DNA of 64,000 nt, taken from Thermococcus radiotolerans (GTDB lineage Archaea; Methanobacteriota_B; Thermococci; Thermococcales; Thermococcaceae). The notes under the pieces are model-generated. The model was given only the letters and a program-made list of their open reading frames with translations, had not been told where the DNA came from and searched no databases. This document shows, piece after piece, positions 6,166-56,705 of this stretch (position 1 is the first letter of the stretch; each line of letters opens with the position of its first letter). Position numbers and translations under genes: made by a program. The stretch covers positions 372,001-436,000 of the forward strand of contig NZ_CP015106.1 of NCBI RefSeq assembly GCF_002214565.1. Direction: 5' to 3'.

Positions 6166-6224
6166 AAGCGGATGACGACCCTTGCCCAGTCTGATGGGTG
6201 ATGACGTCGGTATTAGCTGACGCA
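6166..6224 (+). ncRNA. C/D box guide sRNA (probable)
   Basis: The boxes occur in canonical order: C box ATGACGA (6172-6178, one mismatch to RUGAUGA), 12-nt guide (6179-6190), D' box CTGA (6191-6194), 3-nt linker, perfect C' box GTGATGA (6198-6204), 12-nt guide (6205-6216), D box CTGA (6217-6220). Archaeal C/D sRNAs that steer fibrillarin-dependent 2'-O-methylation have this compact form, and both guides are exactly 12 nt. The TATA element at 6135-6143 predicts a start a few bases before the C box. Candidate target sites are the complements of the guides, ACUGGGCAAGGG and CUAAUACCGACG. I did not identify the target RNAs. Confidence 0.75.
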
Positions 6225-20166: not shown

Positions 20167-22866
20167 ATGTCCCTCTTTGAGACACTCAAGCCCCTCAAGT
20201 CCGAGATAGCGAGGGTCCACGTTTTTCCTCCTAAGGAAGGCGAGTTCGGCAACTTCCGCTTCGACAATCCCGAAATAAACGCCCTCCTCGAAGAGCTCGG
20301 CTTTACCCTCTACCGCCATCAGGTTGAGGCCCTCGAGAGGCTCTACTCGGGAAAAAACATCGTCGTCACCACGCCAACGGCCAGCGGCAAGAGCGAGATA
20401 TTCCGGCTGGCCATCTTCGACTCCTATCTCTCAAACCCCCGCGCGACTTACCTGCTCATATATCCCACGAGGGCCCTCATAAACAACCAGCTTGAGAAGT
20501 TCTCGCTTCAGAACCTCGTCTTCTACCGCCTCACCGGAAAGCACGTGAGCGCGAGGATCCTGACCGGAGACGTCCCGTGGGAGGAGAGGAAAACCTTAAT
20601 TCGCGAGAAGCCGAGGGTTATCTTCACCACCCCGGACATGCTCCACTACAACATTCTGCGCCGCTGGAGGGACTACGAGTGGCTCCTAAGGAACCTCCGC
20701 TATCTGGTCGTTGACGAGCTCCACGTTTACAGGGGCGTCTTCGGGAGCAATGCGGCCTACCTCTTTCGCCGCCTCGACTTCAGGCTAAGGCGCCTTGGGG
20801 CGAAGCCCCAGATCATAGCGCTCTCGGCAACGCTCAGGAACCCGAAGGAGTTCGCGGAGAAGCTCTTCAGGAAGGAATTCGAGCCGGTAAGCGGTGCCAC
20901 CAACCCCTTTCCAAGGAGGTACTTGGTCCTCTTCGAGCCGAAGAACCTTGACGAGAGGCAGCTCCTCCGGGCGGCCGTTGAGAGGCTCGCTGGGGGGGAG
21001 GTTAAGACGCTGGTCTTCTTCGACAGCAGGAAGGGGACGGAAAAGCTCCTCCGTTTCCTCCTCAGCTCGCCGGTCTTTCACAGAACGAGTACCTACAAGG
21101 GGACCCTGCCGAAGAACGTCCGCTGGGAGATAGAGCGGGACTTCAAGGAGGGCAAACTGCTCGTTCTCCTAACGACCAACGCCCTCGAGCTCGGCATAGA
21201 CATCGGCGACCTCGATGCAGTCATCAACTACGGCATCCCTCCCGACGGCCTTTTCTCCCTCATTCAGCGCTTCGGAAGGGCCGGAAGGAAGGCCGACAGG
21301 GAGGCCCTCAACGCCATAGTCCTCAGAAAGAACGGTCTCGACTACTATTACAGGGATCACTTCGACGAGCTCGTCGATAGGCTGGAGCGGGGAATAATCG
21401 AGTACATGCCGGTCAACCTGGAGAACGAGCGCATAGCCAAGAAGCACCTTCACTACCTCCTCACCGAGCTGGGGATAGTCGACTGGGACGAGCTTGACGA
21501 GTTTGAGAGGAAGATAGCAGAGAGGCTCGTCATCGAGAGGAAGGCAGACCTGAAGAAAAATCCGCTCACGGGAAGGCTTGAAGTCCGCCTGAGGAAGCCG
21601 GCCTTCAGCTACTCGTCACTGAGAACCGCGAGCGACGAGACGTTCTTCCTCGTCAAGGACGAGCCGTGGATAAGGGGCAAGCTGATGGAGAAGTCCTCGC
21701 TCAGGGAGTTGCTCAACTTCATCAACTGGCTCAAGCTCAAGGGTTACATCATCGAGGAGGTCGATTCCGACGAGTACCACCGCTCGCTCCTCCCGGGAAT
21801 GGCCTACTTCTCGCGGGGAGAGCTCTACATGGCCGGAGACAGGCTTTCCCTCGGAAAGTTCCACTTCGTCTTCGCAAGGCAACTTAACCGCTTCTGGGAC
21901 GTGGAAACCTTCGTGGCCAAGAGGGAGGAAGTGGAGATACTGAAGAGCAGGGAGGAGAAAACCTACCGGGGAGTCGAGATACACCTCGGCCGGCTGAGGG
22001 TCAGGCACGTCTACACTGGATTCGCCGTCAAAGGGGCCGACACCGGGAACTACGTCGGTGAGCTGATCAGGTTGAAGGAGGACGGCATCCTACGTGGCGA
22101 GATACATTCCCCGATGACTGGCGAGAGAATCGAGGTCGGGGAGGACTTCTCGATCCTCAACTGGGAGAAGTTTGCGAAGGTCGAGTTTGAGGAACCCTAC
22201 ATCAGGGAGTTTGAGACCGATGGAATATGGCTCGTTTTCCCAGATTCGATAAGGGAAGTCACGAGCGAGGAGTTCAGGGAGTTCTTCGATGTGGCCGCCG
22301 AGAAGGGCTTTGAAGACCCTGCCTTTACCCTTTACACCAACCTCGACAGGAGGAAGCTCTTCCCGCTCTACCTCGGGACTACCACCCACGTCATAAGGAA
22401 GGCCATCGGTGACGCCCTCCAGAGGCTCGGAATCAGCGATGAAGAGCTGGCCTTTGCGATAAAGAAGATGATCGACAGCAAGGACGGAATCGGCTCGGCG
22501 CTTCACGCGATAGAGCACAACATGATAAAAATCGCCCCCATCTTCACCTACGTGGATTCGAGGGAGCTCGGCGGCTACAGCTACGCGAGCTTCCCGGGCT
22601 TACCCCACGTCGGAAGGCCGGTCGTGTTCATCTACGACGGCAACGAAGGGGGAGCGGGCCTCGCACCGATAATCTACGAGAACGTCGAGATGCTGATGGA
22701 GAAGAGCCTTGAGCACCTCCGCTCCTGCCCCTGCCAGGACGGCTGTCCCGTTTGCACGCTCTCCCCGAAGTGCGGCACCTTCAACGAGTTCCTGGACAAG
22801 TGGGCCGCGATAAGGGTCTGGGAGAGGGTTCTGGAAAATAAAGTGGAGAGCCTCAATGGGAACTGA
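20167..22866 (+). CDS. Hrq1/YprA-type DEAD/H helicase with DUF1998 zinc region
   Basis: This 899-residue superfamily 2 helicase has the motifs in order: TPTASGKS (69-76), PTRAL, TPDML, DELH, SATL, then the second RecA-like domain with TNALELGIDIG and QRFGRAGR. The C-terminal third ends in CPCQDGCPVC...C, the four-cysteine site of DUF1998/MrfA-type helicases. Relatives (yeast Hrq1, bacterial YprA/MrfA, archaeal homologues) unwind DNA 3' to 5' and act in repair of cross-links and other lesions. It stands alone on its strand; its 3' end overlaps the convergent ATPase gene by 14 bp. Confidence 0.9.
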   Translation: MSLFETLKPLKSEIARVHVFPPKEGEFGNFRFDNPEINALLEELGFTLYRHQVEALERLYSGKNIVVTTPTASGKSEIFRLAIFDSYLSNPRATYLLIYPTRALINNQLEKFSLQNLVFYRLTGKHVSARILTGDVPWEERKTLIREKPRVIFTTPDMLHYNILRRWRDYEWLLRNLRYLVVDELHVYRGVFGSNAAYLFRRLDFRLRRLGAKPQIIALSATLRNPKEFAEKLFRKEFEPVSGATNPFPRRYLVLFEPKNLDERQLLRAAVERLAGGEVKTLVFFDSRKGTEKLLRFLLSSPVFHRTSTYKGTLPKNVRWEIERDFKEGKLLVLLTTNALELGIDIGDLDAVINYGIPPDGLFSLIQRFGRAGRKADREALNAIVLRKNGLDYYYRDHFDELVDRLERGIIEYMPVNLENERIAKKHLHYLLTELGIVDWDELDEFERKIAERLVIERKADLKKNPLTGRLEVRLRKPAFSYSSLRTASDETFFLVKDEPWIRGKLMEKSSLRELLNFINWLKLKGYIIEEVDSDEYHRSLLPGMAYFSRGELYMAGDRLSLGKFHFVFARQLNRFWDVETFVAKREEVEILKSREEKTYRGVEIHLGRLRVRHVYTGFAVKGADTGNYVGELIRLKEDGILRGEIHSPMTGERIEVGEDFSILNWEKFAKVEFEEPYIREFETDGIWLVFPDSIREVTSEEFREFFDVAAEKGFEDPAFTLYTNLDRRKLFPLYLGTTTHVIRKAIGDALQRLGISDEELAFAIKKMIDSKDGIGSALHAIEHNMIKIAPIFTYVDSRELGGYSYASFPGLPHVGRPVVFIYDGNEGGAGLAPIIYENVEMLMEKSLEHLRSCPCQDGCPVCTLSPKCGTFNEFLDKWAAIRVWERVLENKVESLNGN

Positions 22867-23983
22867 ATTTTCCAACGGCCTCCCTGAGGAGCGGGTCTTC
22901 AACCCAATACCTTTTTTCCGATGAACGAACGAAGCCCGCCTTTTCCAGCGTTTCAAGGTATTTGTAGACGTGCTGTACCTTGGTAGGGGCGAGGCCGATG
23001 GATTGAAGCCTCCGGTAGATTTCGGCTCCCCTGAGGGCGCTGGGATAAGCCTCGGCCAGGACTCTGAGGACTCCTATGTAAACCTCACTGTTGTAGACGT
23101 TCAGAAAAGCCTCTATGTCCTTCCGCCATTCCTCAAGCGCATACCTCCTGCTTTCCTCAAGGGCCATCGGGAGCGCTTCTTCAGGGCTTTTTCCATCCCT
23201 CACGAAGTTGACGACCGTGATGCCGTAGTGGGAGATGAATCCAGGGACTCCCCCCAGCTCTTCAACGGCCCTTGAGAGCTCCAGTTCGTTCGCCACATTT
23301 ATCCCGTAGCTCCTGAACCCCTCCATGAGGTAGCCCCTTCCTTCTTCGGTGCTCCATCTCGGAAGGGTGAAGATTTCCGCCGAGCGCATGAAGTTGGGCC
23401 TTTCGGCTCCTGGGTTTAGATACTCAACCAGCATACCCGGCATTGAACCCGTGAAAACGAGGGAGATGTTCAGATAGCTGTCGGTTATCTCCTGCAGGAG
23501 ACCCCTGAAGTCGAGGTTCTTCAGCCTCGCCAGAACCTGGGCTTCATCGAATATCAAAACGCCCAGCCTGGCATTCTGGGAGAGGACTCTAACCAGTGTT
23601 GAAAAGTCCCTGCTGAACTCTTCGATGCTCGTTTTTCTCACCTCAACACTGAGGCCCCTGAAGGATATTGTATAGCTCTTGCTCGTCGTTATCATCTTCA
23701 ATGACGTTCTCTTTGGTTCTATATCTGATATTGAAATTGCCCTTGAGCCCATGAAGCGAGAGAAGTTGAAATAGACGTAGTGGTGTCCCCTCTTTCTCCG
23801 CAGCTTTTCCGCCATCACGCTGACCACGCTCGTTTTCCCCACCCTTCTCGGGCCGAGGAGAACCGCGGTGTTACCGCGAAGGACTGCACTGAGGAGGTCT
23901 TCAACGGCCTTTCTGTGACCCTCCCCCCAGAGACACTCCTCTTCCATCACTGGCCTCGTCCGGAAGAAGTTTTTACATGCCAT
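22853..23983 (-). CDS. Archaeal AAA-type ATPase (Arch_ATPase family)
   Basis: This 376-residue protein has a P-loop GPRRVGKTS near 44-52, LIFDEAQ (Walker B) near 143, FTGSMPG sensor 1, and a C-terminal winged-helix-like domain (RRLQSIGLAPTKVQHVYKYL). This is the archaeal ATPase family of STAND-related proteins, expanded in Thermococcales. Roles are unproven; links to mobile or defence elements have been suggested. There is no DUF234 region, unlike the second ATPase at 55362. The ATG at 23983 overlaps the edge of a perfect inverted repeat (23982-24010), and the only SD (GGGGTG) lies inside that repeat. It follows YigZ closely on the same strand. Confidence 0.85.
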   Translation of the reverse strand: MACKNFFRTRPVMEEECLWGEGHRKAVEDLLSAVLRGNTAVLLGPRRVGKTSVVSVMAEKLRRKRGHHYVYFNFSRFMGSRAISISDIEPKRTSLKMITTSKSYTISFRGLSVEVRKTSIEEFSRDFSTLVRVLSQNARLGVLIFDEAQVLARLKNLDFRGLLQEITDSYLNISLVFTGSMPGMLVEYLNPGAERPNFMRSAEIFTLPRWSTEEGRGYLMEGFRSYGINVANELELSRAVEELGGVPGFISHYGITVVNFVRDGKSPEEALPMALEESRRYALEEWRKDIEAFLNVYNSEVYIGVLRVLAEAYPSALRGAEIYRRLQSIGLAPTKVQHVYKYLETLEKAGFVRSSEKRYWVEDPLLREAVGKFSSH

Positions 23984-24024
23984 GTAATTTACACCCCATG
24001 TAAATTACATACCATGTAAATTTA
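23982..24024 (-). promoter_or_regulatory. Palindromic control region of the first archaeal ATPase gene
   Basis: Perfect 12-bp arms ATGTAATTTACA (23982-23993) and TGTAAATTACAT (23999-24010) flank a 5-nt spacer. Read as direct repeats, a 16-bp unit beginning ATGTAA starts at 23982, 23998 and 24014. On the minus strand a TATA-like CTTTAAATTT lies at about 24015-24024, which puts the transcription start inside the palindrome. The SD GGGGTG (23992-23997) is also inside, and the ATG overlaps its last two bases. The layout suits an operator for self-repression or an RNA hairpin hiding the SD. Confidence 0.55.
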
Positions 24025-24651
24025 AAGGTTCCCCTCAAACGAACTCATGAAGAGCCTCCTGAGCCGGATTCTCCCCCTCGTCCTCTCCGTCAAGAGCCCC
24101 ATCAGCCCCTCAGCTTCGCCTTTCCTCGTTTCGACGATGAACGTCACCAGCTCGCCGTAGTCCTCTCCAACGACTTTTCCTCCGGAATTCTCAACGGTCT
24201 CCCTGACGAGGTGGAAGAGACTGTAGGGGAAGGTGACTTGGAAGCGCTCTGTCTCGTAGACCTCAACGATGCCCGCGTTTTCGATGGCTAAGCTGGCGGC
24301 ATCGCTGTAGGCTTTGACCAGACCGCCGTAGCCGAGCTTTATGCCGCCGAAGTAGCGGGTAACAACGACGACAACGTTGCTCAACCCTTTGTTCTGGATA
24401 ACCTTGAGGACGGGCTTTCCCGCACTGCCCTTCGGCTCGCCGTCGTCATCGTACCTGATTGAGAAGTTCTTTCCGTCGTTGATGAGGTAGGCGGAAACGT
24501 TGTGCGTCGCGTCGCTGTGGTGGGCCTTGATTTTTGCGATGAACTCCCTCGCTTCGTCCTCCGTCTCCGCGGGCGATGCGTAACCTATGAAAACTGACTT
24601 CTTAACCACGAGCTCGGCAGTGCCGACTCCCCTCAGCGTTCTGTAGTCCAT
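24022..24651 (-). CDS. YigZ/IMPACT family protein (UPF0029)
   Basis: This 209-residue protein matches the YigZ/IMPACT family: SVFIGYASPAETEDEAREFI, HSDATHNVSAYLI, DDGEPKGSAGKP and VTRYFGGIKLGYGGLV are hallmark blocks (about 18-115). A C-terminal ferredoxin-like domain of about 70 residues follows. Eukaryotic IMPACT interacts with translation control, while the archaeal/bacterial role is unclear. GGTGA of the preceding stop region serves as SD; the gap to the upstream HAD gene is 3 nt, so the two are co-transcribed. Confidence 0.92.
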   Translation of the reverse strand: MDYRTLRGVGTAELVVKKSVFIGYASPAETEDEAREFIAKIKAHHSDATHNVSAYLINDGKNFSIRYDDDGEPKGSAGKPVLKVIQNKGLSNVVVVVTRYFGGIKLGYGGLVKAYSDAASLAIENAGIVEVYETERFQVTFPYSLFHLVRETVENSGGKVVGEDYGELVTFIVETRKGEAEGLMGLLTERTRGRIRLRRLFMSSFEGNL

Positions 24652-26065: not shown

Positions 26066-26142
26066 GCCGGGGTAGCCTAGCTCGGCAGGGCGGCGGACTC
26101 GTAATCCGCAGGTCGCGGGTTCAAATCCCGCTCCCGGCTCCA
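26066..26142 (+). tRNA. tRNA-Thr (anticodon CGT)
   Basis: The 77-nt tRNA has acceptor strands GCCGGGG / TCCCGGC (one G-U pair), discriminator T and an encoded CCA (26140-26142). The anticodon arm has stem GCGGA/UCCGC with loop CUCGUAA, so the anticodon is CGU. The T-loop GGTTCAAAT is normal. A TATA element ACTTATAAAC (about 26033-26042) suits a start near the 5' end, so this tRNA has its own promoter. Confidence 0.95.
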
Positions 26143-55361: not shown

Positions 55362-56705
55362 TCAAGCGGGCCTTTCGAAGTCCCCCAAGTCCCATACAAG
55401 CCGACCCCCTTCCCTCAGCTCTTCCTTCCCTTCAACACCCTTAGCCACCAGCCCATAGCTCTTCTCCCAATCGTCAAGCCTCACAAGCTCGGCCTTCCTC
55501 TCCAAGTCCTTCAAGATTCCTCTTGCTTCCCTTTCACTCAGCTCCTTCCATTTGACTTCAACAAATAGGACTTTTTTCTCCCTCTCGTTCAAAGTCACCA
55601 AGTCAATCTCCTCGTTCTTGTACCACCACTTTCCAATCCTCGTGAATCTGAAGGGAAGTTCCCGTGCCTTGTTCAGCTCGATTAAAAACTGCTCGGCAAT
55701 CTTCTCAAACACCGGGCCGAGATAGTGGTTGTAGTCCCTTTCAATCTCCTCGACGTCAAAGATTCCCTCCTCGATGGCCGAGAGGTTCGGATAGATGAAG
55801 CGGAACCAGAAGGCGAGGAAGTTGTCGGCCACGTAGTAGCGGCCCCTTTTCGAGTTCGGTTTTTCGGTTATGGGAACCTCCCTAACAACGAGGCCAGTTT
55901 CGATTAAGTTCCTCAAGTAGGGTGTTACATCTGAGTGTCTCATTCCGATGAAGTCCCTTATCTCCTTTGGTGTCGTTTTGCCGAGGGCTATCGCCTCAAG
56001 GATTCTTCTGTACGTCCTTGTCTCCGTGAATTCGTACCTCAGCAGGAAATCTACTTCGTCGCGGAAGAAGCTTACAGGGTTTCTCAACTCCCTATCAAGC
56101 CACTCCCAGAAGGGCAACCGGACCTGCGTTATGTAGAACGGAATCCCATCGGTCATGCCGTAGACTTCCACGAGCTCCTCCCAGCTTGAGCGGGGATAGA
56201 ACTCCCGCAGGTGAAAGAACTTTAGGGGTTTGAGCTTCATTGAGCCCGTCCTCCTCCCGTAGAGGGGACTCTTGTAGCTGAGCACCTTCTCCGTCATCAT
56301 GCCCACCGAAGAGCCAAGGAGAATTAGCTTCGTGTTTGAATTCGAAAGATCTGTGTCAATAACTCTCTGAAACTCGCTTAGAACTCTCGGATCTTCTTTT
56401 ATCAAGTTCGGAAACTCGTCAATGACGATGACCTTCCCTCTTAGGGTGTGGAGGAGGGCCTCCCAGCTTCCACGGGCGTATCTCGCCTCTGGAAAAACCC
56501 TCTCGGCGGTCTCCCGAAAGTGCCTCAGGTTATCTCCTTCAATGGCCAAGTAGTAAACGTGGGGAACGTCTTTCACTGCTTCGAGGACGAGACGGGTCTT
56601 CCCAACGCGCCTTCTCCCATAGATGACGATTAGCTCGAAATTCTCGCTTGAGAGCCGTTCTCTCAGTGCCTTAAGCTCCTCATTCCTATTTACGAACTTG
56701 ACCAT
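55362..56705 (-). CDS. Archaeal ATPase with DUF234 nuclease-like tail
   Basis: This 447-residue protein has a P-loop IYGRRRVGKTRL (about 28-39), VIVIDEFPNL (Walker B), LLGSSVGMM (sensor 1), a winged helix (about 240-290) and a DUF234 C-terminal domain with EEIDLVTLNE and LFVEVKWKE, which suit a PD-(D/E)XK nuclease-like fold. It is the second archaeal ATPase of the window. Base composition is more AT-rich than in the neighbours, which hints at transfer. The ATG at 56705 abuts a 12-bp perfect palindrome arm; GGTGAT within the arm is the only SD. It follows tiaS on the same strand and ends 16 nt from the FGGY stop. Confidence 0.85.
   Translation of the reverse strand: MVKFVNRNEELKALRERLSSENFELIVIYGRRRVGKTRLVLEAVKDVPHVYYLAIEGDNLRHFRETAERVFPEARYARGSWEALLHTLRGKVIVIDEFPNLIKEDPRVLSEFQRVIDTDLSNSNTKLILLGSSVGMMTEKVLSYKSPLYGRRTGSMKLKPLKFFHLREFYPRSSWEELVEVYGMTDGIPFYITQVRLPFWEWLDRELRNPVSFFRDEVDFLLRYEFTETRTYRRILEAIALGKTTPKEIRDFIGMRHSDVTPYLRNLIETGLVVREVPITEKPNSKRGRYYVADNFLAFWFRFIYPNLSAIEEGIFDVEEIERDYNHYLGPVFEKIAEQFLIELNKARELPFRFTRIGKWWYKNEEIDLVTLNEREKKVLFVEVKWKELSEREARGILKDLERKAELVRLDDWEKSYGLVAKGVEGKEELREGGRLVWDLGDFERPA

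Follow-up and report, generated by a model that had tools for sequence, protein, structure and literature searches.

Tandem palindromes from TATA box to fourth codon of an archaeal ATPase gene: a candidate self-repression operator in Thermococcales

What is the function of a palindrome that covers the predicted transcription start, the Shine-Dalgarno sequence and the ATG of a gene for an archaeal ATPase? The original prediction for this locus, which lies in a window of 64,000 nucleotides of Thermococcus radiotolerans DNA (56% GC; all coordinates below refer to this whole stretch), described a perfect 12-bp palindrome and suggested a strict self-control operator or an RNA switch. We find that the palindrome belongs to an array which is part of a wider promoter plan of the ATPase family, with letters that differ between paralogues and a layout that is kept, and that self-repression is its most likely function.

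The array at the ATPase gene

The palindrome as first described proved right in all its coordinates and incomplete in its extent. The arms, ATGTAATTTACA (23982-23993) and TGTAAATTACAT (23999-24010), flank the spacer CCCCA (23994-23998) and overlap the ATG by two bases (CAT on the plus strand, 23981-23983); GGGGTG lies within the structure on the minus strand, and ATGTAA recurs at 23982, 23998 and 24014. The full array consists of three 15-bp palindromes at a 16-bp step (23973-24019), which together extend from the TATA box to the fourth codon and take in the predicted start site and the Shine-Dalgarno sequence. It can be read as a chain of six half-sites, TTACA or TGTAA, with the sequence TTTAAATTTACATGGTATGTAATTTACATGGGGTGTAAATTACATGGCATGTAAAAAC on the sense strand of the ATPase, and a repeat search of the region returned both a 22-nt inverted repeat at 91% (23972-23993 / 23999-24020) and an 18-nt unit present three times at a spacing of 16. 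The features of this locus, and of a second ATPase locus in the window, are:

20167-22866, plus strand: DEAD-box helicase gene with an MZB domain, convergent neighbour of the ATPase gene
22853-23983, minus strand: Arch_ATPase gene, 376 aa, ATPase_2 / AAA_14, AAA+ core
22871-23086, minus strand: predicted C-terminal winged helix of the ATPase, residues 300-371 (AlphaFold2 pLDDT about 85-95; sub-threshold HTH_69 match, E 1e-4)
23973-23987, minus strand: palindrome unit 3, TTACATGGCATGTAA, covering the ATG and codons 2-4
23989-24003, minus strand: palindrome unit 2, TTACATGGGGTGTAA, covering the predicted start site, Shine-Dalgarno sequence at its centre
23992-23997, minus strand: GGGGTG, likely Shine-Dalgarno (from the sequence)
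24005-24019, minus strand: palindrome unit 1, adjoining the TATA box, TTACATGGTATGTAA in the sense of the gene
24019-24026, minus strand: predicted TATA box of the ATPase promoter, TTTAAATT (from the sequence; same position in orthologues)
24022-24651, minus strand: UPF0029 (YigZ-type) gene, upstream neighbour of the ATPase gene
55362-56705, minus strand: second Arch_ATPase gene of the window, ATPase_2 and DUF234, 447 aa
56706-56740, minus strand: second array, GTGATAATCACCATTATCATAACGGTGATTATCAC, directly before the ATG (palindrome scan, tandem score)

The 3' end of the helicase gene overlaps the ATPase gene, and the stop codon of the upstream UPF0029 gene sits inside the ATPase TATA box, the 5' end of which lies 43 nt from the ATG. 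In published start-site studies the TATA motif and the start site are a median of 23 bp apart, with a median leader of 16 nt, in T. kodakarensis (PMC4247193), and the TATA box is centred about 27 nt upstream, with a median leader of 12 nt and a pyrimidine-rich -1 position, in T. onnurineus (PMC5316973). Since the TATA box of the window ATPase is at -43, transcription is predicted to start near the first G of GGGGTG, at 23997, giving a 14-nt leader. Within codons 1-4 (23972-23983), which hold part of palindrome unit 3, C3 and K4 of the ATPase are invariant in 20 of 20 aligned orthologues, so that the operator and this end of the protein may constrain each other. Elsewhere in the window, Rfam matches comprise an SscA RNA (447-543), a Pyrococcus C/D box RNA (6168-6223) and two tRNAs (2231-2314 and 26066-26139).

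Conservation with the gene and rarity in the genome

One way in which the original prediction could fail was absence of the palindrome at orthologues. From 94 Thermococcaceae genomes we obtained loci for 27 full or near-full ATPase orthologues, and all 27 carry the array at the gene start, one of them in truncated form (the first half is lost in G062); the G023 orthologue is frameshift-broken. Half-sites are letter-perfect in 144 of 162 cases, and identity to the window is 0.967 over 780 half-site letters, 0.769 over 442 letters of spacers and linkers and 0.498 over the 624 letters directly upstream of the TATA box. The ATPase gene occupies several genomic sites with unrelated upstream DNA, adjoining the UPF0029 gene, and often the helicase gene too, in two genera and lying elsewhere in two others; the persistence of the array at several sites indicates that it goes with the gene. 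In a phylum-level search of 115 genomes the subfamily of the window ATPase was confined to Thermococcaceae. Judged by coordinates, about 1.3 kb (G042) and about 1.9 kb (G023) of extra DNA lie between the UPF0029 gene and the ATPase array.

A search pattern built from two units was positive in 39 of the 94 genomes, at one place in each, and the reversed control pattern in none. These positives are the 27 orthologues, three decayed copies (G018, G021 and G059), one relic (G041) and eight genomes in which the array stands alone, the ATPase being absent (G020, G026, G031, G033, G037, G047, G070 and G071). Such solo arrays lie between convergent helicase and UPF0029 genes, with borders TTTTTACA and TGTAAAAA, and their half-sites are mostly intact (loci L049, L053, L056, L058, L061, L067, L085 and L099); degenerate forms occur in three further genomes (G016, G027 and G066). 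On a tree of the UPF0029 protein with 39 rows, genomes with the full locus and those with the solo array intermingle; each state shows six label changes, four and two of them, respectively, being forced by starred branches. A search of the eleven genomes with solo or degenerate arrays for the ATPase winged helix gave no good relative, the one match having E 0.0014 and 36% identity over 42 residues. The solo arrays might be remnants of gene loss, perhaps retained as terminators.

At no more than one mismatch the unit TTACATNCCATGTAA is found nowhere else in the 1.87-Mb genome, and at two mismatches there is one further site. When the starts of 431 genes were scanned by one rule for all, the window ATPase ranked second, the best palindrome being that of the other Arch_ATPase of the window. 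On a score for two tandem palindromes in the region -60 to +30, for which ATPase starts were picked by hand and controls were taken at their first in-frame start, the window ATPase exceeds all 429 control genes (control maximum 21). The earlier statement that the repeat is far from chance is thus borne out. We also considered a wider regulon for the array motif and rejected it, because the motif occurs at one place per positive genome, with no second site at one mismatch or fewer here.

The same layout with other letters in paralogues

We inspected the starts of the eight PF01637 matches in the genome, one of which is Orc-like, together with 40 further paralogues fetched from about 100 further matches listed; subfamily letters (A to N) are our own labels. 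Many of these paralogous Arch_ATPases have palindromes of different sequence at the equivalent place, for example GTGACGGCCCGTCAC; ACTTGCAGGGGTGCAAGT and ACTATCGGGGTGATAGT, each with a near copy behind it; and GTTACAGGGGTATAAC together with GTTACAGGGGTGTAAC. All 14 representatives have their start 39-46 nt from the TATA box. Measured from the TATA 5' end, the outer units are centred at 13-14 and 30-32.5 nt in those of subfamilies A, G and N; the first centre (12-15 nt) is seen in B, C, D and M and the second in F, and H, I and J carry a single long inverted repeat centred 26-28 nt from the TATA box. The half-sites of A and F have TTACA in common, and their main difference is spacing.

How strongly this layout stands out varies among subfamilies. 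By tandem score, five of the genome's seven Arch_ATPases reach 22 or 23, above all 429 controls, with one more at 21 and one at 17; one of the seven, L160, has no apparent array. Outside this genome, F scores 23 and one row of C 21, and the representatives of B, D, E, H, I, J and K, at 18-20, lie within the range of the 429 controls and are not significant. In the one-rule scan the other Arch_ATPases of the genome are matched or exceeded by 17 (L160), 25 (L161), 2 (L162), 39 (L163) and 2 (L164) of the 431 genes; for L160, L161 and L162 the highest-scoring palindrome is not any of the arrays reported here. When the 40 paralogue regions were compared with the 429 controls, 17 lay above the 95% point and 15 above the 99% point; the accompanying p = 2e-14 is not to be read as a probability, because the regions are mutually related, and for the G subfamily the best palindrome in this comparison is a separate upstream hairpin. 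This hairpin is strong, lies just upstream of the TATA box, about 40-67 nt before the start, in five G genes (L147, L155, L156, L157 and L158), is separate from the array and varies in sequence (e.g., TCAACCTTTGCTTGCGCAAAGGTTGA).

The second Arch_ATPase of the window, of DUF234 type, offers a further case. It is among the five whose tandem score exceeds that of every control. Its array, GATAAT-N4-ATTATC, recurs with minor changes, as judged by eye, at 24 of 25 orthologue loci; L230 is the exception, and the L232 copy is more distant from the assumed start.

Function of the array and relation to known systems

The product of the window gene scores 35.3 bits against ATPase_2 (cut-off 33.2) and 37.8 against AAA_14 (cut-off 27), which places it in the archaeal ATPase family PF01637, of SSO1545/PAB2304 type. 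Its Walker A motif, GPRRVGKTS, is invariant save for one I/V position in 20 aligned rows. An AlphaFold2 model (mean pLDDT 76, residues 75-121 poorly predicted) has an AAA+ core followed by a C-terminal winged helix, which is the likely DNA-binding part of the protein. The nearest solved structures are SSO1545 (2fna; Z 27.6 over 321 residues) and PAB2304 (2qen; Z 26.7 over 328), which are also the sole sequence matches in the PDB; ORC2 (1w5t) follows at Z 20.1, NLR or CED-4 type cores at Z 15.5 to 19.6, and DNA-bound Orc1/Cdc6 entries at Z 15.8. A profile search detected no separate sensor domain in the ATPase. Membership of a defence system was considered and rejected, the PADLOC matches being weak and explicable by shared ATPase motifs.

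Taken as a DNA operator, the array is well supported: it accompanies the gene across species, is found nowhere else in the genome, and keeps a fixed distance to the predicted TATA box that is repeated in paralogues with other half-sites. That part of the predicted strict self-control operator therefore stands. Binding by the ATPase itself is what we infer, since likeness of the recognition helix and likeness of half-sites are uncorrelated (r = -0.05 over eight subfamilies, in a small test of hand-picked and hand-aligned half-sites and helices, with rows A_G007 and A_G082, which came from neighbouring genes, left out). The helix is nearly invariant among orthologues down to 61% identity and differs between subfamilies.

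Our best explanation is that the operators serve autorepression and are probably bound by the ATPase's own C-terminal winged helix. A dimeric sequence-specific protein, most likely the ATPase, would bind two or three adjacent palindromes between TATA box and start codon and block RNA polymerase at the start site, which would make the gene self-repressing. The oligomeric state of the ATPase, and hence its grip on DNA, would probably change when it binds ATP or ADP or senses a signal. Because related Arch_ATPases of Thermococcales share the layout and differ in half-sites, each would act mainly on its own gene. As a whole explanation, autorepression by the ATPase through its winged helix at tandem palindromes seems to us reasonably probable.

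Three other readings have to be weighed against it. The array could be the site of a separate transcription factor that serves only the ATPase gene; the persistence of solo arrays in genomes with neither the ATPase nor a good relative of its winged helix, together with the missing covariation between helix and operator, fits such a factor. However, a motif tied to one gene, at one place per genome, would be odd for a separate factor, a different array for each paralogue would call for as many extra factors, and no regulator is seen beside the ATPase gene in the window, so that we consider this reading unlikely. An RNA element, whose leader hairpin would hide or expose the Shine-Dalgarno sequence and the AUG, either as the RNA switch first suggested or as a guard against read-through translation from UPF0029, draws on the strong fold of RNA through the whole array (-33 kcal/mol, z -5.7), with the Shine-Dalgarno sequence in the loop region, and on the position of the UPF0029 gene upstream on the same strand. 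Yet the predicted mRNA would begin within the array, at GGGG, and folds no better than shuffled sequence (z -0.04), which makes a switch less likely, and a search of Rfam 15 at gathering score gave no match in the array region. Unit 1, between TATA box and predicted start, would moreover be untranscribed from this promoter, although its half-sites are conserved, and the recurrence of the unit-to-TATA spacing in paralogues agrees with competition between a bound protein and the transcription machinery. The RNA reading thus loses ground, and we hold it to be improbable.

Finally, the array could be one end of a mobile cassette carrying the ATPase, or its target site, with solo arrays as empty sites or scars. 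The gene is indeed found at several sites, always with the array at its 5' end; solo arrays lie between the same convergent gene pair as the window ATPase, and full and solo states are interleaved in the neighbour-gene tree. Against this, inspection by eye found an array after the stop codon in none of the 27 loci, a count that also ruled out an insertion-type element with inverted ends on both sides. Searches of plasmid, phage and viral collections gave no match, an empty result that is not proof of absence, and at the window's site the gene is decaying in place in G018, G021 and G059, as ordinary loss would leave it. We regard the cassette as the least probable of the three, and very improbable. 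Self-repression by the ATPase remains our preferred reading.

As a tentative extension, we suggest that the Arch_ATPases of Thermococcales, a large family of paralogues with NLR- and Orc-like cores, may be ATP-controlled autorepressors. Each would have a tandem operator of its own at a constant position between the TATA box and the start, in a promoter plan recoded many times as the paralogues multiplied, and some operators would outlive their gene and serve another purpose where two convergent genes meet. In hyperthermophilic archaea, Arch_ATPase genes are common and unexplained. A private operator would give each a direct and cheap handle in the form of a DNA target of known sequence, so that each ATPase becomes a regulator open to test and the family a natural set of protein-operator pairs. 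The literature that we searched, most subscription journals lying outside its coverage, contained no report of palindromic operators at Arch_ATPase genes.

Among known proteins, SSO1545 (2fna) and PAB2304 (2qen) have the overall fold of the window ATPase at about 22-23% identity, and no operator for them is described in the literature searched. Orc1/Cdc6 proteins (2v1u, 2qby and ORC2, 1w5t), two of these entries being DNA-bound, likewise have an AAA+ core followed by a winged helix. They act at replication origins, whereas the window array occurs a single time, at one gene, where it spans promoter and start codon; nothing comparable precedes the Orc-like match of this genome, whose tandem score of 19 is reached by 83 of 429 controls. 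Autoregulated archaeal repressors such as Phr and Lrp-type proteins bind palindromes at or next to the TATA box or start site of their own gene. Unlike the window protein, these are dedicated small regulators and not ATPases, and they are not known to form a family of many paralogues in which every member has a private array. STAND regulators such as MalT and IniR are NTP-dependent switch ATPases that control transcription, and the ATPase domain of IniR was predicted to resemble SSO1545 (PMC5760070). MalT and IniR, however, are large proteins with a sensor domain, a different type of DNA-binding domain and other target genes, whereas no separate sensor domain was detected in the window ATPase. 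A private operator for each ATPase also suggests a possible role for such NLR-like cores before they gained sensor domains, namely that of a switch on DNA.
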